A stretch of DNA of 64,000 nucleotides from Albifimbria verrucaria (Eukaryota > Ascomycota > Sordariomycetes > Hypocreales > Stachybotryaceae): contig JAHREC010000062.1 of NCBI GenBank assembly GCA_020081605.1, positions 3,224,001 through 3,288,000 on the forward strand, in the 5' to 3' direction. Shown in pieces: positions 1,516 through 61,005 of the stretch. The translations under genes and the position numbers were made by a program. The notes beneath the pieces were generated by a model. It had not been told where the DNA came from and did not search any database. It was given only the letters and a program-made list of their open reading frames with translations. How positions within the stretch are numbered: position 1 is the first letter of the stretch; each line of letters opens with the position of its first letter.

Positions 1516-2544
1516 ATGGCTTCACCACCATACGCGACCTCGCCTTCGGCAATGTCGCCGCCGGCGCTCTCACCATCCTACAATCCACCATCTCAAGCAG
1601 CCAACAAACGGAGGTCGACGAATCTCGACGTGAACGCACCACCTGTCAAGCGGCGCAAGCCTCCAATGTATCGATATCGTCGGGTCCCTCGCACCCGTTG
1701 CGTCAAACGTCGTTCCCCCAGAGGCTCGATCGCCCTACGCGCGCTCCCCTTCAGTCGATGCAACATCACACGTCAGCGGCAGCGCTGTCAGTACCACTGC
1801 CAGTGGCGCGCCAAAGAAAAACGCGGAAGGAAAGCGAAGAACGCTAAGGGCGACGAATCCGTGGAGCAGACACCAAGCCTCGTCGGTGGGAAAGCACCTA
1901 CGAACGTGAGCGGCCAAGGGGAGAAAAGGAGGGCGAAGACGACGATGATGATGAGAAGGCGGAGATGGCGCTCGAGGATGTGGGAGCGAGGACACAGGAG
2001 CAGAAGCAAGAAGAGATAAGATTGAGGGCTATGCTTGTGGAATCGTTCGACAGCGAGCAGTACAACCGATACGAGGTCTGGCGTGCAGCGAAGCTATCTG
2101 ACGCCGTTGTCAAAGGGTAAGCCGAATGCAGAAGCAATTAGTTCGTTTCCCGGGGCTCTAACATGATACTAGGTGGTCAACGCAACGGTGTCTCAGTCAG
2201 TACCCCAGATGGTGAGCACAGCCGTCAAGGCGGTCGCCAAGCTGTTTGCGGGAGAGATCATCGAGGCCGCACGAAACGTCCAGGCCGAGTGGATCGTGGC
2301 AGGAGAGAAGCAGAGCGACCTCCCCACACCTCCGCCTTCAGCAAGCGAAACGGGCGAAAACGAAGAGCACCCCGAACTTCACAAGCGAGGCCCGTTACGT
2401 CCTGATCACTTGCGAGAAGCATGGCGGCGGTACCGGCTGAGCGGAGAGAGCCGTGGCGTGGGAATGCATCAGCTATGGCACGCTCAACAAGGGAGTGGTG
2501 TAGAGAGGTTTTCGACTAGGACCGGCACGAGGCTGTTCAAGTAA
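1516..2544 (+). CDS. TAF11: TFIID subunit TAF11 (TAFII28-like histone-fold protein)
   Basis: Subunit of general transcription factor TFIID; in known complexes its histone fold pairs with TAF13. The N-terminal part is a Ser/Pro-rich, low-complexity region followed by a basic GRKAKNAK-type patch and an acidic stretch. The histone fold begins around MLVESFDSEQYNRYEVWRAA and continues across an intron at 2117-2172 into VVNATVSQSVPQMV and VKAVAKLFAGEIIE. The C-terminus has the family signature GPLRPDHLREAWRRYR, then GSGVERFSTRTG. The frame changes several times in the N-terminal half, and one A is missing from the AAA at 2112-2114 just before the intron. All look like single-base losses. Only the histone fold and tail are strongly conserved; the N-terminal frame choices are inferred. 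Confidence 0.88.
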
Positions 2545-3940
2545 AGGATTGATGAAGAGAGAGAGAGCGGCTCTCAGTCTGCTGAAAAATGGGCGCAACG
2601 ACGGACTCAAAGGATCATTCAACAACGTAATAGAACCCTAGCGATAATAGCATAACGATACCCCAATGAATTTGAACAACACATAGCAAAGATCGTTTGT
2701 CCATAAAGACCACATGCCCAGCCCCAAGATGAATCTACTGATCTGCACAAGTAGCCAACACCAACCTTAGCTCACAGGCGCAATAGCTCTCTGTCCACTA
2801 TCGTACTGTGGAGAAGCGCAGCGAATGTAGCGTCAGGGTCGTGCAGCCCAGCTCCCGATCGAGTACCGCACCACAACCGTGTCACGGCAGGGGGCTCTCT
2901 CGCACCCCTGTAGAATGCGACGCTGCGCCGATTTGAGGGTTGTCGGCAGTTACCGGTAGCGTGAAGATCTAGACTTGTTTTTTTGGCCAAGACTGATTTC
3001 ACCAACAGCATTGCTTTCAACGGTATACTGTATACTTAGGCAGCCAGGAATCCTTATATAGGTATTTAGCCTTAGGTAAATGCCTAATAGTACCTCTAGC
3101 AATGTACTTAGTAACTCTATACCAGGTAACGTTACTTGGTAAATAACTTCAGGCTTCCTTTTAATAAGGCTTTTTATGTTACTAAAAATCGTAAGGTAGG
3201 CGAGACTTTTCTCCTCCCTCTGTAGAATCGTTCTGAACCGTGGCCTACATATCTATATATCATTTTCATGGCTAGCCTACAATTATAAATTTCTTATGGT
3301 TTTATTCATTAATTCTTGGATATTTTATTGATTATTCGTTAAGATATCAGCGCGAAATATGCGGAACTTTTGTCCGCCCACTGAGCCCAGCTTCATTGGA
3401 TTATAGTGAGACTTCAAGGCTCTGGGTGGAACTCACCCACAGGAACTATGCATGTTACTGGACCCTGAGCATCTGGTTGATTGATTAATTGATTGATTGA
3501 TTCAAGGGAACGCACGCTGCGGTGGCCCCGCGGCTGGCTAACATGCGGTCTGGGACGTGGGCGTCGCTAGACACAAACGCAAACGCTGCACGGCTGGATC
3601 TGGAAGAAAAAATTGGCTGCTGTAAGTAGGGCATCGATAGCTGCCTACATTAGTGCAAGCCAGTGGCAGCCCCACCACTAAAAATTCGCCGGGTGCCCAT
3701 ACCATTCAATTCCGCTTTGTTTGTCTTTCAGGTTTCCTTCTTTCCCGTCTGGCCCGTTTACATGTTTTGCTCAGCTTCAGCTTTCGTCCTCTCCCAATTC
3801 CCAGCTTCTCGGATCTCCCCTCCCCCTTTGCGTTTGCGTTTGCGGCACCCATTGGGGACGGTCCGTCTGTGACTCCAGCGCCCCTCCTTCTCATGTTAGA
3901 CACACGGTAGACTTGTAGAACCAACCTTCGCAAAGGCGCC
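2545..3940. other. Intergenic with an AT-rich patch and a short microsatellite
   Basis: No gene supported. About 3020-3370 is clearly more AT-rich than its surroundings and may be an old RIP-affected remnant, but I cannot name an element. A (TTGA)n-like run lies at about 3478-3503. The pyrimidine-rich stretch at 3700-3860 is a likely 5' leader or promoter of the following bZIP gene. Confidence 0.5.
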
Positions 3941-4959
3941 ATGGCCGGGACAAAGGTACGCTTCCCTCCCCACTTTGGCTGTGTCTCACACAAATAACAA
4001 ATCTCGGTGCGATTGTCTGACATGGCGCTTTTTCTTGCCGCTCTTTCGTGTAGGCAACCCAAAATGGAACTATGGACGCTTCAGCCGTTCGGATTCGTGA
4101 CAATCAGCGCCGCTCCCGGGCCCGGCGCAAGGAATACCTCGAGGACATCCAGAAGAAGCTCCAGGAGTACGAGCGCCAGGGCGTCCAGGCCACCCTCGAC
4201 ATGCAGCAGGCCGCCAGGGACGTTGCCATTGAGAACGACCGATTGAGGATGCTGCTCCAGCAGCGTGGTGTCACCTCCGACGAGATCAGCGCCTTCCTCC
4301 AGTCCTTCCCTTCCAGCCAAGAATCCGCCAAGAGGATCAAGATCGCTTTGAACCCTCCTCAGAGCCCGCAACGGCCAGGCCACAGACACCCAAAGATGGC
4401 TCTGCCGCCGTTGTCCGCCGCCGTTACGACTCCTCCCAAAGAAACCAACCCGATCTCGACACCGGTCGCTATTGATCCTGTTCCCCCATGAGATCTTGTG
4501 CGCCGTACTGTCCTTCAGCCATTCGAACGCCTCCAGAGTATGGCCCAACGCAGTTCCCCGCGCACCCATACTCGGACGTTGTGTTGCCTCCAATTCAAAC
4601 CATCAAGACGAGCGAGGAAATTGGCGTTGACAGGCTATCAGTCCTTGCACACGCAAGCGCTCGGCAAGATTGCTGCAACGGTCACACTAAGTGTGTTGTC
4701 CCCTGAGGTATCGCAGGCACCCAGCCCAGCGGCTACGGTTCTGGGCTCATCACAGCCGCATTCTACTTCTCCGGGTGAGCAAAACAACATCTCGCCACTG
4801 GAAATGTCCTGCAGCCAGGCAGCTAGGATCATTGCCGATATGCAAGGGCATGGGGATTACAACCTGGCCAAGGAAGCGCTTGGGTGTAATTCCTCGCAGG
4901 AATGCATCGTGAAGAACTCGGCTGTGTTCCAAGTGCTTGAGAACCAGGAACCAATTTGA
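3941..4959 (+). CDS. Fungal bZIP transcription factor (short form)
   Basis: Predicted nuclear DNA-binding regulator of the short fungal bZIP type with a C-terminal Cys-containing domain. The ATG at 3941 encodes MAGTK, then an intron 3956-4053 splices in frame to ATQNGTMDASAV. The basic region RIRDNQRRSRARRKEYLED is followed by heptad leucines in LQEYERQGVQ and ENDRLRMLLQ. A C-terminal block, CSQAARIIADMQGHGD then LGCNSSQECIVKN, is characteristic of this family in Sordariomycetes. The frame is interrupted at the C run 4483-4487 and at 4700-4703; adding one C to each restores a continuous protein that includes CCNGHTKC. The stop is at 4957-4959. Target genes are unknown. Confidence 0.85.
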
Positions 4960-5121
4960 AAAGGCAAAGCATTCATCACTTCGAATGACAACGAGCCTCC
5001 ACTAAGCACCATGCAATCAAAACCTGAGGTATTGGGAATCATCATAGTTGGCTTTATATGCACGCTAACAAAGTTTTAGAATTTTGCAACATCGTTCCAG
5101 TCATAGAAGCTCGACGCTTCG

Positions 5122-6371
5122 TTACGCCCATTTCCAACGCCTTGCCATGAACCGCATGAGGTAGACCAGTCCAATCAGGACTGGTACCTCTATCAACGGG
5201 CCAACAGTCGCCGCCAGGGCTTGTTGGCTATCTGCACCGAATGTCGCAACCGCTACGGCGATTGCCAGCTCAAAGTTGTTGCTCGCGGCCGTAAAACTCT
5301 GGGTACATCCCAGTCTGTAGCCAAACTTCAGCTTACGCGTAATCCAGAGCGTAAAGAAGAAGATGACGACAAAGTAAACGACCAGTGGTGCCGCTACCCG
5401 CACAACAGAGATAATCTGGCGAACGACCTGCTTTCCTTGGGCGGCAAACAGCACAATAATTGTATAAAGCAAGCCAATCAGCGACCACGGGGACAACCAC
5501 TTCATGAAAACATTCCGGTACCAATCAGGCCCTGCCAGACCGCGGACAATGAATCTCGTGATGATGGCAGCACCAAGGGGATTCCGAGGAACGCCGCCAC
5601 GCTTGTCGCTACAGTCGAGTAAGACACTGCGCAGATATCGGTCATTTCCTCGTCACCAATGACGCCGATGAAAAAGACGGCAAGAGGAGCGAATAGAACC
5701 ATCTGAAGGATAGAGTTGATGGCCACCAGGATAGCGCAATATTCGGTGTCGCCGTGGGCGAGGTTGTTCCAGATAAGGACCATGGCTATGCAACGGCCGA
5801 GTCCCACGAGGATCAGGCCAGCCCGTAGTTCAGGCTCATCAGGGAGGAACGCCCACGCAAGAGCGAGCTGTGTGTTATTGTCAGCGGACCAGCTAGCGAA
5901 CCAGTTAGATAGCATATTGACTTACCATGAAGAATGGAGCAATGATCCAATTCATAACGATGCTGAAGCCTATCTGTATCCATATCTTGCGTTGACGGAA
6001 TACTTTGTGAAGAGTCTCGTATTGAACATTGCAGAGAATAGGATACATCATGACGAGCAGGCCCACCGCTGTTCGATATTAGCTTACAACCCAAGATGAA
6101 CGAGCAGTAGCTTGAGCTCACCTATCGGTACGGAAGCGCCGACAAACTCGCCCCGGTGCAAGACATCTGCGGTTTCGGGGACGTAGTTGCCCAGTAGAAT
6201 GCCTATCACCATGGCCAGAAACACCCATATAGCGAGAAGCCGATCCAGCCATCCCAGTGCCTTGATTGCTGAGCCAGATTCGCCATGTCCACTGGGCGGT
6301 GTAGTTTGGGTAGCCTTCTCCTCATCGGATTGCTGTGTCGCGTGCTCCTGGGATCCGGCGCTTCCGTCCAT
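5122..6371 (-). CDS. ACR3: Arsenite efflux transporter ACR3
   Basis: Plasma-membrane As(III)/antimonite exporter of the ACR3 family (bile acid/arsenite permease fold, ten membrane helices expected). I take the ATG at 6369-6371, after which a polar, Ser/Thr-rich cytosolic N-terminus leads to helix 1, LLAIWVFLAMVIGILLGNY. Introns are at 6069-6121 and 5868-5925, both GT-AG and both restoring frame. Family landmarks are MMYPILCNVQYE, LVGLGRCIAMVLIWN with the conserved Cys, and CTQSFTAASNNFELAIAVA. The protein ends in a basic RRWKWA. One base is missing in the G run 5577-5580; with it the frame continues through TRFIVRGLAGPDWYRN. No arsenate reductase or ArsH gene is adjacent. Confidence 0.93.
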
Positions 6372-7074
6372 GGTCGCTGGACGCCGAAAAAAATGTCTCA
6401 TTTCGGGGTGGCGTAACGGAGCACTCCTGGCTTCCTCGCGCAACGGGAGGACAAGTGCAAGATCCCAATGCCTTCCCAGCCGTCCGAGTGGGAAGATGTA
6501 CAAAGTCCAGCACGGGGACTTTTAAGGTATTTAGGTTTCCAAATGTGGGCTGCAGCCAGGCTTAATAGATAAAGAGGTCCGGCCAACTTTGCGTCAGCAC
6601 CGACCAATCCGCGGCGATGGGTGACGACCCTCCCCGGAGCGGCAATTTTTGGTCAGATTCCCGATATGCTTGGCATAGGTACCAAGCGTATCAGATCCAG
6701 GGTTCGCAAGCGTAACATTCAGTTCGGCCATCTTAAATCCGAAAGCATAAAAGCCGGACCAGGGGTTTTTGCACGTCGCAGAGCTCTTTGGGCAGTGATG
6801 GTCACGCTTGATAATCCACCCACCGATTGATGGCTCTAAGCCTTGCTCGAAGCGTATACATTACCCGATCAGGGCCCCAACTGATGAAGCCCATATCCCA
6901 CTTTCGCCACAGGACTTATCGCCAAGCAGATAGTGCCAAATAATCACATGGCGTACATCATCATCACTTCACCCATGGAAAAAATCCAAGGAGGCTAACA
7001 GCTCGATATGGGATTTACTGCTGATTCATCACATTAAAACATGTCTTCATTAAAGCTAGTGCTAAGCTACCGAA
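6372..7074. other. Intergenic between ACR3 5' end and SurE-like 3' end
   Basis: About 0.7 kb holding the ACR3 promoter and the 3' region of the SurE-like gene. No open frame with recognisable sequence and no repeat seen. Confidence 0.5.
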
Positions 7075-8029
7075 TTAAGGCAGACAGGTCAGGATGTCGC
7101 GAAGCTTCTCCAGCACAATGTTCTGGCGCTCGTCATTGACGGTGGTCTTGTCAGAGGCGTCACCAATGCTGATAGAAATGTAGCAGCCGTCCGTGTCGAC
7201 GACATCGGTCTCGGTGGGCAGACGGTCGGAGCCGCACCAGTCGACATCAGGGGCCGAGATGATGCCAGGGTTGATTCGGCTGAGAACCCACTTGTAGTTG
7301 CGGGCGTTCTCGCAGGCGCCCACGGCCTCGGGGAAGTTGACGTTCAGGAAGACGTCGTCAGGCAGGTAAGGCTTGCCCGACTGGATGACCTTGTTGGTCA
7401 GCTGGGTGGCCAGCTCGGCGTAGACGCGGCTACGGACGGGGACCGGCGAGGCGTTCCATGCGAGACGGCCCTCAGAGGCGGCGGAGAAGGCAATGGCTGG
7501 GATACCGGCCTCGTGAGCGGCGTAGGCGGCAGCACCAACAGTGCCGGAGAAGGGCACGGAGAGCCACAGGTTGGTACCGACGTTGGGGCCCGCGACGGCA
7601 AGCTCCGGGGCGGCGCCGTTCCAAAGCTTGGGGCCGAAGCGGTCGATGCCGTAGCGCATGGAGGTGACGGGAAACGAGTTGACCCAGTTTAGGTCGGGAC
7701 GGGTGGCGTTGTTTCCGAAAGCGCCGCTGTTGGCAGGGCAGCTGCTGTACTGGCAAGCATCACGGCGGTTGCCGGGCTCGATGTCAAGGGAGCCTGGAGA
7801 CGGTTGTCAGTTTATGATGATGCGAGAATGCAGAACCTGGTAGGGACTCACTAGTGCCGGACTTGTTGTCAGCGGGAGCAGAGACAACGACGTTGTGGCC
7901 AGAGGCCCTCAGGGCGTCGTTGAAGGAGCGGAGGTACAGCTCAGCCCAGCCATCGTCGTTGGACTGGACGATGCGGACGGCCTGGACAGCCAGGACCTGC
8001 AAGGCAACGAGGGAGAGGGCAGCCTTCAT
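7075..8029 (-). CDS. Secreted SurE-type acid phosphatase / nucleotidase
   Basis: Member of the SurE survival-protein phosphatase family; fungal secreted members are usually annotated as acid phosphatases or 5'/3'-nucleotidases. The start at 8027-8029 gives a classical signal peptide (MKAALSLVALQVLAVQA) directly followed by the metal-binding N-terminal motif VRIVQSNDDGW. An intron at 7794-7851 joins exons of 178 and 719 nt into an intact protein of 298 residues. Other family landmarks are VSAPADNKSG, AVAGPNVGTNLW, SGTVGAAAYAAHEAGIPAIAFS and DDVFLNVNFP. Extra cysteines (DACQYSSCP, GACEN, DWCGS) fit a secreted, disulfide-bonded protein. Upstream in-frame ATGs exist, but only this one exposes a signal peptide at the N-terminus. 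Confidence 0.9.
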
Positions 8030-36138: not shown

Positions 36139-36991
36139 TCATCTGATCATGATATAAGAGCCGGGCTCTTCTAGATCTCTATGCTCCGGGGCTATACTGC
36201 ACTCATCGAGAAGAGTTTCGCTTGTATCCCACTGCTCTTCAAAAGCAACCTCAAGAAGATTATCCTCTGCATCATCTTCTTCTTCTCCTCTGATCCCCAC
36301 ATAAACCCGCCATTTGTTATCTCCAAGTAGACCTGTTTCGACTTTGCGCGAGGAGAACCACTTAAAAGCCATTTTGCAGTATTGAACTGCATACACTGCT
36401 TCACCAGAGACTGTAAAATCGTGAGCAGACTTCTCCTCTGTTTCGTTTTCCTGGGTGACTGAAGGATCCAAGACTCCCCAAGGCGGATCCCATATAGGTT
36501 CGCCTCCACGACTGAAGATACAGGAGCTTGTATAGTGCAGCCAAGGCCTTTCTTTGCCTCGGCAGCGACGTTGACTGAAGCATTGAGAAACGTGCGATAT
36601 CCTACGATGAAATAAACGTCCTTGCCATCCTCTATGGCCTCCTCTATCCATCTTCGGGTATCGTCCAGCGCACAAGCACTGCGGAAACTGCTGTCCCAAT
36701 GATTGAGAATGTAGGTCCTAGCCATCGTCGACTGCACATGAACCCCTGAGCCTTTTTGCGGCTCTGAAAGAGAGTCAGGAGCTGCGTAAGGGCGACACCA
36801 ACTTGAGTGTTTTTGACATGTTCCGATAATTCTCGCACATCCTTCTCTACCTGCACTGTTGAGCCCAGGTGTTCAGCTCCAAAGGCGTCATGGTAACGTC
36901 GCTGAGGGTTTTTCAAATCCACCACAAACCGACCCAAGGCAACGGCGTCGAGCGGAAGCAAATGGTTTTGAAGCAGAAGTTTGGCGGCCAT
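36139..36991 (-). CDS. Gasdermin-like candidate, partner of the TPR-CHAT protease
   Basis: Predicted single-exon protein of about 284 residues, start 36989-36991, stop 36139-36141. N-terminus MAAKLLLQNHLLPLDAVALG is followed by a proline/charge-rich loop, then ARTYILNHWDSSFRSAC, DDTRRWIEEAI, and the strand DGKDVYFIVGYRTFLNASV. A later pair of strands is AVYAVQYCKMAFKWFSSRKV and KWRVYVGIRG, then an acidic tail of about 50 residues rich in Glu/Asp. Length, helix-then-strand order and a short acidic tail after the putative pore-forming part resemble fungal gasdermin-like proteins, which are known to sit beside protease genes. Two frame breaks lie in homopolymers (T run 36753-36757, C run 36476-36479 on plus). 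Gasdermin identity is inference; the gene itself and its linkage to the CHAT gene are seen. A different effector family remains possible. Confidence 0.6.
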
Positions 36992-37449
36992 GTTCTGGTA
37001 GTAGTCACAAGACCGCAGAGGTGAGCCGCAAGAGACAACCTACGACACATTGCCCTATTTTGTGCCAATAGAATCTTTATTACGATGTATGACAGTGCGG
37101 GACATAGTAAGTAAGCACCGAGGACAGGGGTACTTTCACGCAAAGACGATAATGTTAATTGGAGGAGACGGCCACCCCTCCTCAACGTTGCATCGAAGGC
37201 GGAGCAATTGTCTTCTCTGAGGACATCTTGGTCTGGGGTCAGTTGAGCCTGAATCGGTCTGATTGGAGCTTCGAGCGAAGGAGCTCAAGGCACCCGCTGA
37301 AGCGAGGCTGAGCAGTTCCTTGACTAATCTTTCTACCAAATCTTCCCAAGTCCAAAATTTAACAATTTGCAACCTGCGTCCTACTGGTTGATCTCTGTCA
37401 GCAAAGTTTTATTTGTTCTCAACACAGCTAGTTGTTTGCATTTGTTTGA
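36992..37449. promoter_or_regulatory. Divergent promoter of gasdermin-like and CHAT genes
   Basis: 458 bp between two head-to-head starts. The only open frame inside is short and unrelated. The arrangement implies joint expression of the two genes. No specific operator recognised. Confidence 0.55.
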
Positions 37450-40400
37450 ATGCTTGATCCACCAACAACCAGTGATATGGAGTTGTTGGGACAAAACGGA
37501 GAGCCAATGGCCGACCAGGTCTTAGCTCAATTGCCAATGGTTGAACAGATGATGGAAATGATGCCGCAAGAAATGAGGAACGTCTTTTGGAAGGGTATCC
37601 GTGAACTCTTCCACCAGAAGTTTCTAAAAGAAAGGTCTGTTGCGGACCTGAATGAGGCCATCAAAGCTGGCGAGAAGGCCTTGACTTCGGCACATGATGA
37701 GGATCGCCCATCGGATCTGAATAGCTTGGCCTATATGATGGTTTCAAAATATGAGATCAGCTCTGACCTATCCCATCTCAACCAGGCAATCTCTTACAGT
37801 TTGGAAGCGAAAGAGCACGCCTTGACGATGGACGAGTTAAGATGGGAAATTATAAACGATCTGGGCTTCGCTTACAACTTAAGATACCAATCTCTACCAC
37901 CAGGAAGAGGAATGGATGACTTAGACAGAGCCATTGACTGCTCAAGAGAAGTATTGGCACATGCTCAGCCAGGTAGCCCAGTTCATGCCACGGCTGTATC
38001 CAATCTTGCTAGTCGTCTGCTTCTCAGGTCAGGCGCGAATGACAGTCTCGACGACCGGAATGAAGCATTAGAGGCTGCCAGGCAATGCTTGGAAATTGAA
38101 TGTGGGGTTCTGTGCCACGAATTGTTATGCAACAAAATCTGAGCTATACGCTTCTGATGGATTATAAGCGAACCGGCCACGGACGCGATTTGGAGGAGGC
38201 TCTGAGACTACAAAGACTCGTGGTGGACACATGCACCAATGATGACGAGCATATGGCAAAGAACTACAATACTCTTGCCGATATCTTCCATGAGAAATAT
38301 CGACAGACTCTAGACTCCAGCGACTTGACGGAGTCTCTCTTGTCCAGGAAAAAGCTATATTAGCAAGTCCCCTTTCGGATGATATAGATTCGACGCGAGG
38401 GCGATATCTGCTCCACTACGTGATTCAAGTCAAGGAACTGGTAGCGCTCATCAACGATGCTGCAAAGATTGAAGATCTTATTCTTGAGGCTAAAGAGTTG
38501 ATAGAATCTATGCCAGATGTCTTTGCGGAATTTGTCAGTGTGCGGTATCAGTTTGGGCACCTTCTCAGTCGAAAGTACGAGCTAACAGGCGAAATCATTG
38601 ATCTCAATATTTTGCTCTGTCATACAAAGGCTGTAGCCTATTTGATCAATTGCATGGAATGCGAGAGCTCAAACTTACCAAAGCATGACATGGACGCATT
38701 GTTGTTGCTTCTTACCCACGTTCAAGCCATTTCTGCAGCGTCTCACAGTGATGACATAGTGGCTCAAATGACAGTGACCATGCACAAGGCGTATTGTACG
38801 TTGATAAAGACGAAGGACTATATAGAAAGTCTTACCGCACTGGAACTCGATACTCAGCTCCATGTTCAAATACGCATAGTCGTACAAAGTTTGGATCCTA
38901 CAGATGAGGAAAGGATGATCAGGATGCGAGAGAGGGTAGATTTTGCCTCCTCTTTGGGGCAAAATCCTTCCAGTTTCGGCTGGCATTGGGCAATTTAAAA
39001 CTGAAAGACCATGAAGCCAGCAACATTACAAGTGAAATGGAGGCCTTGGAAAAGGATTTCGGAAATTTAACGACGCTCAAGCCTTCTGGCGATATGCCAC
39101 AAGAAAAGTACGCAGTTACCTTCGAGGAGAACATGATTGCTAACTATGATGTAGTGAAGACAATATTCTGGAGGTCGCAGAAGAAGTCTATAATGTTGCA
39201 AGATCAACTGAAAACTTTGATCAAGGGGTCTTGGAACTTCAGACTTTGTATTCAAACCAACTGACAAAAGAAAACAAGGCTCATTTGGTGGACTTGATCG
39301 CAAATCTTCATTTTCAGTCTTACTTATTTACTGGATCTCCAGAGGACTTGATGAAAGCGGTAGACAATGTAAAGAAAAGCCTTCAACTATTTGATGACCA
39401 GGTTTACTCAAAGTAAGTGACCCTACCATCCTAATAGGCTGTCAGTTAATCCATGTATGTAGCCAGGAATGGAACATGCTGCGGGGCAATGTATTATGTG
39501 ATACAGCAAATGCTCTGAGAGGCTTGTTCATACAAATGCGAACAGAAGAGAGTTTGACGGACGTCTTGTCCATGGCTGAAGCGACTGTCAAGATGACAGA
39601 ATACACATATGCAAAGCCAAGAACTGCAGAGGAATATGGGCTCAGGAGTGCTGCCAAAACTATTATTTCAAATGCACTCAAAGCGAAGTATCAGTTGAGA
39701 GGAGACTTCAAAGACTTGGAAGAAGCCATCAAAGCTATGCATGAGGCTATGGAAATTGACGACCAAAGCCCTTCAGTCAGCACCGAGCAAAAAGAAGTCC
39801 AGGTGAACCAGCTCGCTTTGATGATGCGTCTTCGTTTTTTTGAGACGCACGAGACCTATGATCTCGACACAGGAATACGATACATAAAGGATTTTGTGGA
39901 AGGTAAGAACTGACATATTATTGAAACCTTATGCTGTGTTACTGAATCTTCCCAAGGTTATGGGGGCAAGAGGCCAGACCACCTTCGTAATTATAATGGT
40001 CTGATCTGCAATCTTGGCTTGTTGTGCGGAACCAAGGCGGAACGCACAGGGGACTTGGACGACGTGGATCAAGCGATCAAGTATCTCAACAAAGCTTTGG
40101 ATCTGACACCTACCGAGAGCCCTGCCTACTACGCGGCGATGCAAAACTTGGCGAATACTTATTCAACCCGATATGGTTTGTTTGACGAACTAGGCGACCT
40201 AGAGATCGCAGTTGGCTATGCCAAAATCCTCGGCGGACGCGCATATGAAGCGCCTGTTTCGGATGGAAACATGTTGCTTGAGTCTGCAATGATCATGAGG
40301 ACCAGCTATAAAGCGACGAATAATATCGAGCACTTGAAGTTGGCAAGCCATTGGGCAAGAAAGGCAATGCCCTACTTTCCTCCAAGTTCTCATACGTATC

Positions 40401-42415
40401 CATATGCTCAGCTAGGACATGCCACAATCTTGGAATTGCAGTTCAACAATGATCACTCTGACCAAACATTGACAGAGTGCGTCGAGGCTTATAAAGCCGC
40501 AACGGAAGCAATAAGTGCAAGGTGGAGGGACAAGGACCTAGCCACCCAAGCTCTATACAAGCTGTTGGTGAAACAAAACAATTGGGTGGAAGCCTTGAAG
40601 TTAGTGGAAGGAATGATTGAAGGCATGGGCGATCGTTGCCCACGTTGGCTGCCATCAGGCGATCGTCAATTTGTCCTGTCAATCTTTCATGGAGTACCGT
40701 CAGACACCGCCGCTTTGCTTCTGCAACTCAGCAGCCCCAACAGGGCGTATCGGGCTTTGCGAGCTCTGGAAATAGGTCGTGGTATACTCCTGGGCTCTAC
40801 CATGGATTATCGAAGCGAGATAAAGCATTTCAGGGCTGAGCAAAGAGACTTATTGCGAGACTGGAACAACCTCTGCATGAGAATGGATTCGGCTGTGCAG
40901 GAATCTAAGAAAGAGCTGGATATGAGCAAACGGCATTGGATTCGAGCTGCTTTGTCGAAGACTATCGAGCGAATACGGGCCATTCCCAAGTTCCAAAATT
41001 TCTCTCCGCTTTTGGACTATAATTCGCCACTATTGAGGGAGCTACGGTCGGAAAATCCTGAGCTTTTCGGAGTATACAACACTCTGCAACGCCAGCATGA
41101 TGCTCTACCCATTGAGATTCAAGATGGACAGCAATCAAAGAGGCAACGCCAACTCTCCAAGGAAATGGATCAGATGCTTACCCTCATCAGGAAGCAACCG
41201 GGTCTGGAAGACTTCTTGCTTCCATTAAGTGAGGCTGAGATGAAGGTCTTGGGGTCCCAAGGACCTGTTGTGATAATCAACAGCAGCGAGAATATCCAAC
41301 GAAGTGACGCCATCATCATTACAGCGAATGGTATTCAGGCTCTGCCGCTATCCACCCTGACTTATAGTGATGCCAAGCGGTATGCTCAATTGCATGCAGA
41401 AGCAGTCACCGGCTGGACGGTCCGGACGATGGCGAGAAAGAATAAACTTATGAGAGAATATCTTTTGTGGTTATGGTCTGAAGCTGTTCAACCTGTCCTC
41501 AACAACCTGGGCGTACAGGCAAGTCGCGCTGGACCGAAGCAACGCATACATTGGATCGGTATAGGAGTCTTCAGTGGAGCTCCTTTTCACGCCGCTGGTG
41601 ATCACAGCGAGGGCTCAACAGAGAACACCATTGCCTGTGTGATGTCCTCATACATACCCAATCTCCGAGCTCTATCGTTTGCTAGAGAGGAGCCCTCTTC
41701 CAAGGATCTCAGATCACTCAGTAGTGCAAAAGATTCCTGCTGGTCTCCGTAGCAGCGGCCCCAGGTGTACCACGATTACCTGCAGTGCACGAAGAAGCCG
41801 CAGCTATAGCGAGCGTGGCTCAATCACATTACAATGTTGTTCACCTCAAGGAACCAACAACAGAAGAGGTTCTTCAAGAATTACCCTCGCAAACATCCTA
41901 CACCTTGCCTGTCATGCCACGGCAGATCGGCACGACATGAGCAATAGCCATCTCATCTTGATGCCAGAAAAGAAGCATCGCCTACGAGCCTCATGTCTCC
42001 AGAGCTGGTGAGGCATATGGGCGAAGATGCGAGCAAATACTACCAGCCCGAAGCGGCCTATGGTCAACTCTCCGTCAGCCAAATCAGCTCAAAACGGGCC
42101 CCATCTGCCGAATTGGCGTTCCTCTCTGCTTGTTCTGCGGCAGAAAACAGAGTTGCAGCACTCGCTGACGAATCAGTTCACATTGCTAGCGCCTTTCAGC
42201 TTGCTGGATTCAGGCACGTCGTAGGCACCCTGTGGCAGACAAAGGACAAGTGCTGTAGAGAAGTTGCAGCGCATTTTTATCAGGTGTTGTTGGCTGAGGG
42301 AGATGGGTTGAATCTTCGAGTTCCTGAGGCTTTAGATAAAGCTGTGCTGAAATTGCGCGAGGCAAATCCGGAGAAAGTATTGGATTGGGCGCCTTTTATT
42401 CATATGGGAGCATGA
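37450..42415 (+). CDS. TPR-repeat CHAT-domain protease
   Basis: About 1,600 residues. The N-terminal 1,200 residues are a long array of degenerate TPR units, each with a YSLEAKEHAL or DLEEAIKAMHEAMEIDD style helix pair. The C-terminal CHAT domain (caspase-like clan CD fold) begins near 41240 and contains PVVIINSSENIQRSDAIII, PGVPRLPAVHEEAAA, EPTTEEVLQEL, then the catalytic His in HLACHA (CAT 41913-41915) and the catalytic Cys in AFLSACSA (TGT 42131-42133). It ends with HVVGTLWQTKD and WAPFIHMGA. Both catalytic residues are present. Introns 39413-39462 and 39903-39956 are GT-AG and in phase. Frame breaks near 38105, 38340, 38985, 39220, 41720 (A run), 41895 and 41970 look like single-base losses. 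Partner of the divergent gasdermin-like gene; repeats probably sense a ligand and release protease activity. Confidence 0.85.
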
Positions 42416-43905: not shown

Positions 43906-44514
43906 CAACGGCGTTTTCGAGGGCGTTGAAAAGGGCGTTCAGAGCTGCGAGTTCGAGGGAAATTTGCAAGCCTTTGCAGCTAAGACAACGGGATCTTTTC
44001 CTCTATTAACCCAATGGTGTTGTGATATATGGATAAATTCGTTCCCGGCTCGATATCTCTTCCGGGATCCCTTTTCCTTCCTATATATCGACCAATATTT
44101 CCTATATAATTCGTCAGAAACAGCTTCCTGCCACAGGCCCAGGGATCTATAGCGTGGCCAAGCTGGCTGCCCGTCTCTCTGCAAAATGAAGCTATTAGAA
44201 ACAGCCGTCTTGAGGAGGAAGTCCCAGGCAAGGGCCCTAGCCGGGCCCCGGCGTTGACGATGATTTCCTATACGCATATTCGATCTTAGATGATCTGCAA
44301 TATCTACGCCGTTCATATGATGGTTATAGTCAAAAGCCACAGCCGGGATCGGGACCTCTTTGACCGGCTCGTCTCCAAAGAACTGTTTAATTGGGCCTGA
44401 ACAGCGATGTGACGATATTGGCCGCTTCCTCGTACAGACAACGGTCTCGCTACCGTCATAAACAGTGGTCAAAAACAACACTAAGGCATTGTCTTTCCAA
44501 GCTATCTGGTTGAC

Positions 44515-44664
44515 CTTCAAGACGGTTAGTCAGTCAGTCAGTCAGTCAGTCAGTCAGCTAGTCAGTCAGTCAGCTAGTCATAGCTATATATATATATATA
44601 TATATATAGCTATGACTAGATGACTGACTGACTAGCTGACTGACTGACTATGTGGGTGACTGAC
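44515..44664 (-). repeat. Palindromic (GTCA)n-(TA)n-(TGAC)n microsatellite filling a transposase intron
   Basis: The 150-nt interval is made of GTCA repeats, a core (TA)n flanked by CATAGC/GCTATG, and the mirrored TGAC repeats. It can fold into a long hairpin. Its borders coincide with a GT...AG intron on the minus strand that joins two conserved transposase blocks in frame. Confidence 0.8.
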
Positions 44665-45951
44665 CTTGTTATCTGGTGTTGGCCACGATTGAATCCGGCC
44701 ATAGGACCACATTTTCCGTCCTTTCCGGTCATCTTCCTTCAATTCAACGAGACGGCGATACAGACCACAGTTCGTACAGCATATGCCGGTGGCCCCTATC
44801 CCTAGCTGCCTAAGGGCAACGAAGAGGCCCAGAGACGGGAATAAGTTATCTATATAGACGTGACATCTAGATAGCGGCAGCCGCTTTATAAGGGCCACAA
44901 CGACGGCTTGGGTCATAGTCAACGCCGGGGCCTTGTCTGACGAGCCGTCTGACGAGCCGTCTGACGATATGACCTTGTTCCTAGCTTTCCGGGGCCCCGG
45001 CCTTCAATGCCCACGGGACCGCAGCCGGGCCTATGCCATAGCCACTGTAACATATATCCGGCAATAGCTAGGACCCAGATCTTAAGGCCTGTGGGTGTGG
45101 GTTTTCCCTTGATCGTCACCTTCTGTTTAGAACGGCCTTAGAAGGCCTGCATAGCCTCATCGACAGTCACGATACTTCCAACGCTAACGATGCTAACAGC
45201 AGCGTTCATCATAATATTGGCCCATTCATTGACCTTATTATAAGGATCCAGGATATCCATATCTATTATATCCGGATTATCGATTCAAAGCCGTCTTTTA
45301 GTAGGGAAAATCGGTCAAACAATATATATCTTGCTATACAGTGTGTCGAGGCATTTCCCGGCCATTGGCCCCTTCCAATAGTCCCTATAGGATTTTTTAG
45401 GATTTAAATCTATATATATTATTATAGCTATCTATATATAGATTTCCGAGATAGATATTGTAATCGTACGGCCGTCAGGACCCGGGTTTCTATTAGTATA
45501 GTCAACCCAGCTTTTAATGAGCTAGATAGGTAGGAAATGCTAGAATAGCTTCAACGGCGATACAGGAAGGTCATAGACTTCAAAGGGATATTCCGGGACG
45601 TGGAACGGTTCAAATTGGCTGCCTATAGCGTCCGTGGGCTTAATATTTGGTCTATATATGCTATCTGCATCTTATTCCAGCCGACTATCGTTCAGGATAA
45701 TATCGAAGTCGATACCTTCGTTAGCAGCCGGTTCAACGATGCCTTCGTCAGCAGCCGGGGCCCTGACCCTTCGAGGCCTGACCCCTTGAGGCCAGGCCTG
45801 GCCGGGCCCCGGCCCTGCTGTTGATATCTTCGTCCTTTATCTTCCATCGATGTATCGTCAAAAGTCCCTGCCTAGCATTTTTGGTGGTAAGAGGTTCAGG
45901 AAGTTACTCTATGTACCGACGTCTGACTAAGACGTTGTGGGGCTTCTACAT

Positions 45952-59274: not shown

Positions 59275-61005
59275 ATGACTGCTACATCGGGTACGAAGCG
59301 GGCGTCTGTTGGGGCTCCATGTAATGAGGCCGACGCCGTGCTTCTTGAAGAGCTAGCCGGTATTCTCGGCGTCGAAGTTGGCATCTCAGACAACTTCTTT
59401 GATCTTGGTGGTGACTCACTTACAGTGGTAAAGTTCACCACCAGAATCAAAGAGCGAACGAATATCGATATCTCAACCAACGACGTATTTGATCAGCCCG
59501 ATCTCGCCGATCTCGCGAACGTCGTTCGATCCAAGATTCTAAACGCCAAGTCACTTAACAATACGCAAAACTTAGTAGTGCTGGCTTATGCGCCGTTCCA
59601 GCTACTATCTCTTGATAACCCAAAGAAATATATCATCGAAACAATTTCTCCTTGTCTTAAGGATCACCAAACTAGTATTTTGGATGTATATCCTGCTACG
59701 TTCGTACAACAAATATGTCTTCACGACGCTATAACAGGACAAGTACGCCCTCCGGAGGTCTTCTACATGGACTTTCCCGCTGGTTCAGACTCCGACGCTC
59801 TAGTTAAGGCTATTAAATCTCTAATCGAGCATGTGGACATTTTCAGAACAGTCTTCGTATCTAATGCAGGTACTATCTATCAAGTTGTTCTGAAACATCT
59901 TGAAGTGCCTATTGACTCTATCAAAGTAGAAGACGACATTGACCAGGCGACATATACACTAGCACACGGAGATTTTCAAAACCCTCTCAAAATGAACCAT
60001 TCCTTGCTTCGCGTTGCTATCCTTAAGAAGAAAGAATCATCAGCAGTGCGGGTAGTGTTTCGAATGTCTCATGCCTTGTACGATGCTCTGAGCTTCAAGC
60101 ATGTTTTGGAATCTCTTCATGCCTTATACAATGGTCAAATTCTCCAGCCGTCGCCCAGATTCGCTCAGTATATGCAACTCATGGCTCACAGTCGTAAAGA
60201 TAGCTATACGTTTTGGCGTTCAGCATTAGAGCATTCGGCCTTAGCGATGTTCCAAAGAAGCAATATTCCTCAGTGCCAGCCTGAAATGAACGGCATGTGG
60301 TTTATAGAAAAGTTCATTGATGCCCCTACTAAGAGCAATTCATACGGTATCACGCCAGCTACTATATTCACCACCGCATGCGGGCAAATGCTAGCTACAG
60401 AGACACGACTAGAAGACGTTGTATTTGGACAGGTTGTGTCAGGAAGGCATTATTTGCCGGCTAGCTGCCAAAACATAATCGGTCCCTGTGCCAATTTTAT
60501 ACCTATCCGCTTGCGTGTAGACAACAAGCACAATCTTCGAGAATTGCTACGAAACGTGCAAGATCAATATCTCAAGAGCCTGCCGTTTGAGACATTAGGA
60601 TTCGACGATATGAAAACAAACTGTACGGATTGGCCGGATCAGGTTTCTAACTACGGCTGTTGCACAGTGTATCAAGGCTTCGACATACAGCCTGAAAGCA
60701 AAATCGGTAATCAGCAGATCCGTTGGAGACAACTGGGGTTGCATAATGATCAACCGGTCGAGTCTACGAAGCCCGGCACCGTGCTAACAAGGCAGGCGAT
60801 CCCCATGACACCACTACAAGATTTATCCATAGTTGGTACAGCTCAACGCGCTGGAGTTGCGTTGCGGGTTTTCGTGGCGGGACATCAGAGAGTTTTCACA
60901 GAGGACAGAGTAGAGAATATACTCGATGAGATAGCGAGGAATATTCGGATACTGAACTCAGCTTTACAACATCCGCCCGCTGATGAGAAAGTTCAGGGGC
61001 AGTAG
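59275..61005 (+). CDS. Free-standing thiolation-condensation (T-C) NRPS protein
   Basis: Intact intronless frame of 576 residues. Residues 18-88 form a peptidyl-carrier (thiolation) domain with the phosphopantetheine site DNFFDLGGDS (Ser48). Residues about 135-570 form a condensation domain: YPATFVQQICLHD, DIFRTVFVSNAGTIYQVV, the active-site motif RMSHALYDALSF (His266, Asp270), VVFGQVVSGRHYLPA, GPCANFIPIRLRV and LLRNVQDQYLKSLPFE. An SHxxxD form instead of HHxxxDG is typical of fungal terminal, product-releasing/cyclising C domains. There is no adenylation domain here or in the 870 bp upstream. It may be the last module of a lost synthetase kept as a separate gene, or act with an enzyme encoded elsewhere. 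It carries no stop or frameshift, unlike its neighbours. Confidence 0.9.
   Translation: MTATSGTKRASVGAPCNEADAVLLEELAGILGVEVGISDNFFDLGGDSLTVVKFTTRIKERTNIDISTNDVFDQPDLADLANVVRSKILNAKSLNNTQNLVVLAYAPFQLLSLDNPKKYIIETISPCLKDHQTSILDVYPATFVQQICLHDAITGQVRPPEVFYMDFPAGSDSDALVKAIKSLIEHVDIFRTVFVSNAGTIYQVVLKHLEVPIDSIKVEDDIDQATYTLAHGDFQNPLKMNHSLLRVAILKKKESSAVRVVFRMSHALYDALSFKHVLESLHALYNGQILQPSPRFAQYMQLMAHSRKDSYTFWRSALEHSALAMFQRSNIPQCQPEMNGMWFIEKFIDAPTKSNSYGITPATIFTTACGQMLATETRLEDVVFGQVVSGRHYLPASCQNIIGPCANFIPIRLRVDNKHNLRELLRNVQDQYLKSLPFETLGFDDMKTNCTDWPDQVSNYGCCTVYQGFDIQPESKIGNQQIRWRQLGLHNDQPVESTKPGTVLTRQAIPMTPLQDLSIVGTAQRAGVALRVFVAGHQRVFTEDRVENILDEIARNIRILNSALQHPPADEKVQGQ

Follow-up and report, generated by a model that had tools for sequence, protein, structure and literature searches.

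Genes for fungal gasdermins (fGSDMs) lie clustered with protease genes in about 80% of cases, and 19% of them are found within 10 kb of CHAT genes, with some of the proteins concerned being NOD-like receptors (NLRs) that carry a CHAT protease (PMC10197012). CHAT occurs in about 17% of Q2-L proteins (PMC10989679), and cysteine proteases, CHAT included, are put at about 17% in a more recent review (PMC12881547), which also describes, after Clave et al. 2022, a two-gene cluster of Podospora anserina where a CHAT protease bearing tetratricopeptide repeats (TPRs) activates a gasdermin. HET-Q1, in turn, is stripped of about 40 C-terminal residues by HET-Q2 (PMC10989679), and of the two hetB alleles one encodes a large CHAT protease and the other a short protein (PMC11138114); here and below, these papers are cited from excerpts. 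We analysed a 64,000-nucleotide stretch of the Albifimbria verrucaria genome (hereafter the window; C41:3224001-3288000 of an assembly with 41 contigs and 48.4 Mb), in which a small gene starting at 36991 on the minus strand and a large gene starting at 37450 on the plus strand diverge from each other. We propose, with good confidence, that the two form a fungal pyroptosis-like module made of a tail-inhibited gasdermin and a TPR-CHAT protease acting as both sensor and activator, a reading supported by the predicted gasdermin fold of an intact relative, a CHAT domain that retains both putative catalytic residues, the acidic tail of the small protein and a threefold linkage of the two gene types in the genome; tail inhibition, cleavage, pore formation and cell death would follow by analogy with described systems.

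The small gene is 98.0% identical to its intact relative P0001, a protein of 271 amino acids (5 of 250 residues differ, with no gaps, once the residues next to the breaks are set aside). The match passes through three frames, with residues 1-83 at 36991-36743, 79-172 at 36758-36477 and 173-269 at 36477-36187, in place of the single 284-codon frame described in the initial annotation. P0001 stops after ...SIAPGA, whereas the open frame in the window continues to 36139, and we therefore place the probable end of the gene near 36180; the stretch beyond, of about 15 codons, is probably in the wrong frame, so that about 15 residues at the end of the window-derived tail are probably spurious. On this comparison the true gasdermin length is about 271 residues and not 284. 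The initial annotation had called the small protein gasdermin-like, with a strand-rich middle, and had named an unrelated soluble fold as one outcome that would speak against it: structure prediction for P0001 returned a gasdermin fold, at modest model confidence, with a middle part that agrees with that description. In a Foldseek search with this model, the best 24 rows were gasdermin entries throughout, headed by Neurospora RCD-1, and the bacterial gasdermins 7n50, 8sl0 and 9a84 were among the matches. Sequence searches returned nothing comparable: the small gene had zero Pfam matches, a PDB search with P0001 at E<=1 offered no route to a gasdermin, profiles A2 and A3, run on the same database, hit no chain at E<=10, and PDB searches with P0022 and with the gasdermin of locus L026 (below) gave, respectively, five matches at chance level and one chance match (E 5.8). 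No gasdermin family emerged from Pfam or PADLOC, and the PADLOC models assigned 0 families to P0001, the Trichoderma asperellum relative P0004, P0022, the L026 gasdermin and P0023.

The last of these, P0023, is an intact CHAT relative of 784 amino acids that matches the window at 40064-42412, short of the N-terminal repeat region, and is 99.6% identical to the large gene (3 of 744 residues differ, with no gaps, when compared away from the breaks). The CHAT model PF12770 scores 71.8 bits (E 8e-20) at 41993-42412 of the window and 119.3 bits (E 2.8e-34) in P0023, against a cut-off of 24. Residues H614, H618 and C691 are invariant in all nine aligned CHAT proteins, and H618 and C691 are presumably the catalytic pair; their codons can be read off the sequence exactly where the initial annotation had located the retained His and Cys (Table 1). 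With the Pfam match and the conserved residues as its basis, the product of the large gene is assigned as a CHAT protease. The domain is spread over four frame segments, with the His and Cys in different frames, and the three frame changes relative to P0023 all fall within about 41728-42017; more lie upstream in the gene, as judged by open frames alone. The repeat region is best described as TPR-like: TPR_8 matches 37450-38139 at E 0.026, below the cut-off, several TPR models score E 0.001-0.05 in the window and P0023, all below Pfam cut-offs, and a designed TPR chain was matched at E 0.011.

The pairing of the two gene types recurs in the same genome. Beyond the window, a genome search with P0001 gave matches at C33:116305-116547 (E 0.003), C33:1678747-1679211 (E 0.010), C6 (E 0.27) and C22:490752-491156 (E 0.77), all of them weak, and the corresponding search for CHAT gave 11 matches; each of the two best gasdermin matches adjoins CHAT matches. 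A gasdermin profile built from 22 family members and run over the open frames of seven loci as well as the window, with E values set for one million sequences, supported locus L025 (E 1.2e-11 and 4e-7), L026 (E 4.5e-7) and L028 on C22 (E 6e-5), left the C6 locus L029 unsupported (E 280) and had no match in L027, L030 and L031. At L025 the gasdermin gene falls into two frames whose junction is too short for an intron, and its tail is only weakly acidic; at L026 it is unbroken, encodes 292 residues and has an acidic tail, and the gene beside it, a CHAT-NACHT gene of NLR type, is broken over many frames. Together with the window, the genome thus holds three head-to-head gasdermin/CHAT pairs; the linkage that the initial annotation proposed to look for in relatives is kept within this genome. 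A CHAT gene stands beside three of the four profile-supported gasdermin loci, or three of six if L048 and L049 are counted. Plain arithmetic puts the probability that, outside the window, two gasdermin loci (out of two or three) would lie near a CHAT locus by chance at no more than 2.5e-6 for a distance of 2 kb and 6.2e-5 for 10 kb. P0001 and P0023 are each listed with one contig, 28,383 bases long in both cases, and the equal size and source make it probable that the contig is the same; among the matches listed, P0023 is the only one of nine CHAT relatives, drawn from 8000 scored candidates, whose longest contig has the same size as that of a gasdermin relative.

Alongside these pairs we observed a second gasdermin-like set, consisting of L028 on C22 and of L048 and L049 on C21, which share 47% and 42% identity with L028, respectively, and are tied to gasdermins solely through it, the profile leaving them unsupported (E 650 and 720). 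The last 40 residues of L028, L048 and L049 are not strongly acidic (net charge +11, +5 and -2), and the CHAT search came up empty for C21 as a whole and, on C22, up to 100 kb from L028. CHAT matches of equal score at C12:292477, C17:40684, C18:40684 and C19:40684 point to repeated or redundant contigs, and the frames beside the C12 match resemble, by eye, NACHT and WD40 repeats.

The short acidic tail ascribed to the small protein in the initial annotation proved to be a family trait: the last 40 residues carry a net charge of -6 to -16 in 22 of 22 members (P0001 included, three being fragments), and the C-terminal segment after R235, 20-61 residues long, is acidic in every one. Only 2 of 4043 other 40-residue windows of these proteins match the acidity of their own protein's tail, in a set that was picked by similarity to an acidic-tailed protein and is not unbiased. 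By analogy with described systems, this tail may hold the gasdermin inactive. The TPR-CHAT cysteine protease would then serve as sensor and activator, with its repeat region reading the trigger and its CHAT domain cutting the gasdermin near the tail, whereupon the N-terminal part would oligomerise in the plasma membrane and kill the hypha, which probably serves defence or the recognition of non-self. This proteolytic scheme follows the activation reported for HET-Q1/HET-Q2 and for the TPR-CHAT case of P. anserina.

Several other readings have to be weighed against it, beginning with the state of the genes themselves. Against intact relatives the small gene shows two tested breaks and the CHAT gene three, and more frame changes lie further upstream in the latter; all this could mean that the module has decayed into a pair of pseudogenes in this strain, intact only elsewhere. 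Yet, outside the breaks, the pieces still share 98.0% of their residues with P0001 and 99.6% with P0023, with no gaps, and the five tested breaks all have the same sense. Introns were considered as the cause of every frame change and rejected, there being no room for them at the 41728-42017 breaks or in the small gene, while a probable intron does cover one frame change of the CHAT gene (Table 1). As a control we took the listed Hsp70 (18) and CCT (20) matches of the same genome, which represent conserved and presumably essential chaperone genes: of 20 junctions between neighboring matches, nine contain 47-146 extra bases, the size of an intron, two belong to neither class (one nested match and one in-frame shortfall) and nine leave no room for an intron, with six short of one base, two short of two and one in excess by one, although two of these nine (one two-base loss and the surplus) cross profile gaps and are less certain. 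With comparable breaks, likewise too tight for an intron, in chaperone genes of this genome, we consider assembly errors more probable than decay, the latter being quite unlikely, and the frame breaks in both genes are probably lost bases arising from assembly or sequencing errors. The base losses in the chaperone genes suggest that the whole assembly is short of bases here and there, and other apparently broken genes in it call for care.

Alternatively, the gasdermin could be activated without cleavage, by two allelic forms pairing as in RCD-1, and the CHAT protease would then act on another target. RCD-1 is indeed the closest solved fold, and a proteolytic step was never observed for it according to the excerpt cited (PMC11760362); RCD-1, however, is described as lacking an inhibitory C-terminal domain, whereas all 22 family members here have an acidic tail, and the genome has gasdermin genes adjoining CHAT genes three times, which makes a cleavage-free route very unlikely in our view. 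Somewhat easier to entertain, though still unlikely, is a heterokaryon-incompatibility locus with alleles differing between strains, as hetB of Aspergillus fumigatus is described (PMC11138114): between the two assemblies the gasdermin is more divergent than the CHAT protein (5/250 vs. 3/744; Fisher p 0.027), but this contrast amounts to eight residues from one assembly pair, one of them with base errors, and both assemblies carry both genes. A broader and improbable extension would have one divergent gasdermin/CHAT cassette set down at three places with its sensor half swapped, TPR-like arrays at two and a CHAT-NACHT gene of NLR type at the third, each reading a different trigger, the cassette in the window being a hetB-like, polymorphic self/non-self locus and the separate three-copy gasdermin-like family, which is without a strongly acidic tail or an adjoining CHAT match, working protease-free. 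We retain the tail-inhibited gasdermin activated by its neighboring TPR-CHAT protease as the preferred account.

The layout of the locus is collected in Table 1, where the 458-bp divergent spacing given by the initial annotation holds as the interval between the two starts.

Table 1. Features of the gasdermin/CHAT locus (window positions) and of the two further pairs in the same genome (locus positions).
Feature	Position	Strand	Basis or remark
Fungal gasdermin-like gene, three frames in this assembly	36180..36991	-	P0001 match; end near 36180 putative
Terminal part of the last open frame, past the probable stop, probably noncoding	36139..36179	-	P0001 end
458-bp intergenic region	36992..37449	.	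Between the two divergent starts; putative shared promoter, two other genome pairs likewise head-to-head
TPR-CHAT protease gene, several frames in this assembly	37450..42415	+	Open frames, PF12770, P0023 match
N-terminal repeat region, TPR-like, several frames	37450..40018	+	Weak Pfam TPR scores; outside P0023 match
Probable 50-nt intron	39413..39462	+	GT...AG and branch-like motif (scan); accounts for one frame change
Possible 54-nt intron	39903..39956	+	GTAAGA...AG by eye, absent from scan; multiple of three, frame kept
CHAT protease domain, three internal frame breaks	41456..42412	+	P0023 residues 465-784
Catalytic-type His codon (P0023 H618)	41913..41915	+	Invariant in 9/9 aligned CHAT proteins
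Catalytic-type Cys codon (P0023 C691)	42131..42133	+	Invariant in 9/9 aligned CHAT proteins
L025 (C33:113500-123400), gasdermin	2216-3078	-	Head-to-head pair
L025, TPR-CHAT	~3744-7191	+	Head-to-head pair
L026 (C33:1672500-1682400), gasdermin	6044-6919	+	Head-to-head pair
L026, CHAT-NACHT	from somewhere below 6043	-	Head-to-head pair

Introns and relatives mark the genome as fungal, and the neighbors in the window are typical of a filamentous fungus; they include PARP, a fungal rhodopsin domain, a sulfatase, a nonribosomal peptide synthetase (NRPS) fragment and a transposase remnant. Transposase remnants at 43939-44922 on the minus strand lie just downstream of the CHAT gene, beside a simple repeat, with 44635-44922 matching DDE_Tnp_1_7 of PiggyBac type at E 1.9e-5. 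In the NRPS fragment (59275-61005, plus strand) we recognise carrier and condensation domains; the plus-strand open frame at 63181-63843 matches NB-ARC weakly, at E 0.005 and below the cut-off, and is possibly another gene of NLR type.

Since gasdermin/CHAT two-gene clusters in other fungi and the activation seen in P. anserina are already covered in the excerpted reviews, the novelty of the locus is low, and a literature search, which did not go by host name, found no description of this very locus. What the analysis adds is a well-supported gasdermin/TPR-CHAT pair together with two more gasdermin/CHAT pairs in the same genome. The triggers of such systems are named a major open question in a 2025 review (PMC12881547), and three divergent cassettes with different sensor halves in one genome offer a natural comparison for what those sensors read. 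The locus also carries a warning, in that assemblies with lost bases can hide such genes: neither gene here would be annotated correctly.

Set against the systems described so far, the bacterial gasdermins, which appear among our fold matches, follow the same logic of clustering with protease genes according to the excerpted reviews; they differ in being prokaryotic, and no PADLOC model matched here. The Neurospora crassa proteins RCD-1-1 and RCD-1-2 (8jyx, 8jyy, 8jyz) provide the closest solved fold and differ, as far as the cited excerpts report, in having no inhibitory tail and no reported cleavage, with the two allelic forms co-activating each other. hetB of A. fumigatus likewise combines a large CHAT protease with a short protein that has no annotated domain (PMC11138114), as alternative alleles there and side by side here. 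HET-Q1 is similar in length (278 aa) and loses about 40 C-terminal residues (PMC10989679, PMC12881547), but HET-Q2, its protease, belongs to the S8 subtilases, and instead of being neighbors the HET-Q1 and HET-Q2 genes occupy a single locus as idiomorphs. The P. anserina fGSDM/TPR-CHAT cluster, compared here by its description, and with an activation that is shown there and would be expected here, shares with the present locus a gasdermin gene clustered with the gene for a TPR-bearing CHAT protease (PMC12881547).
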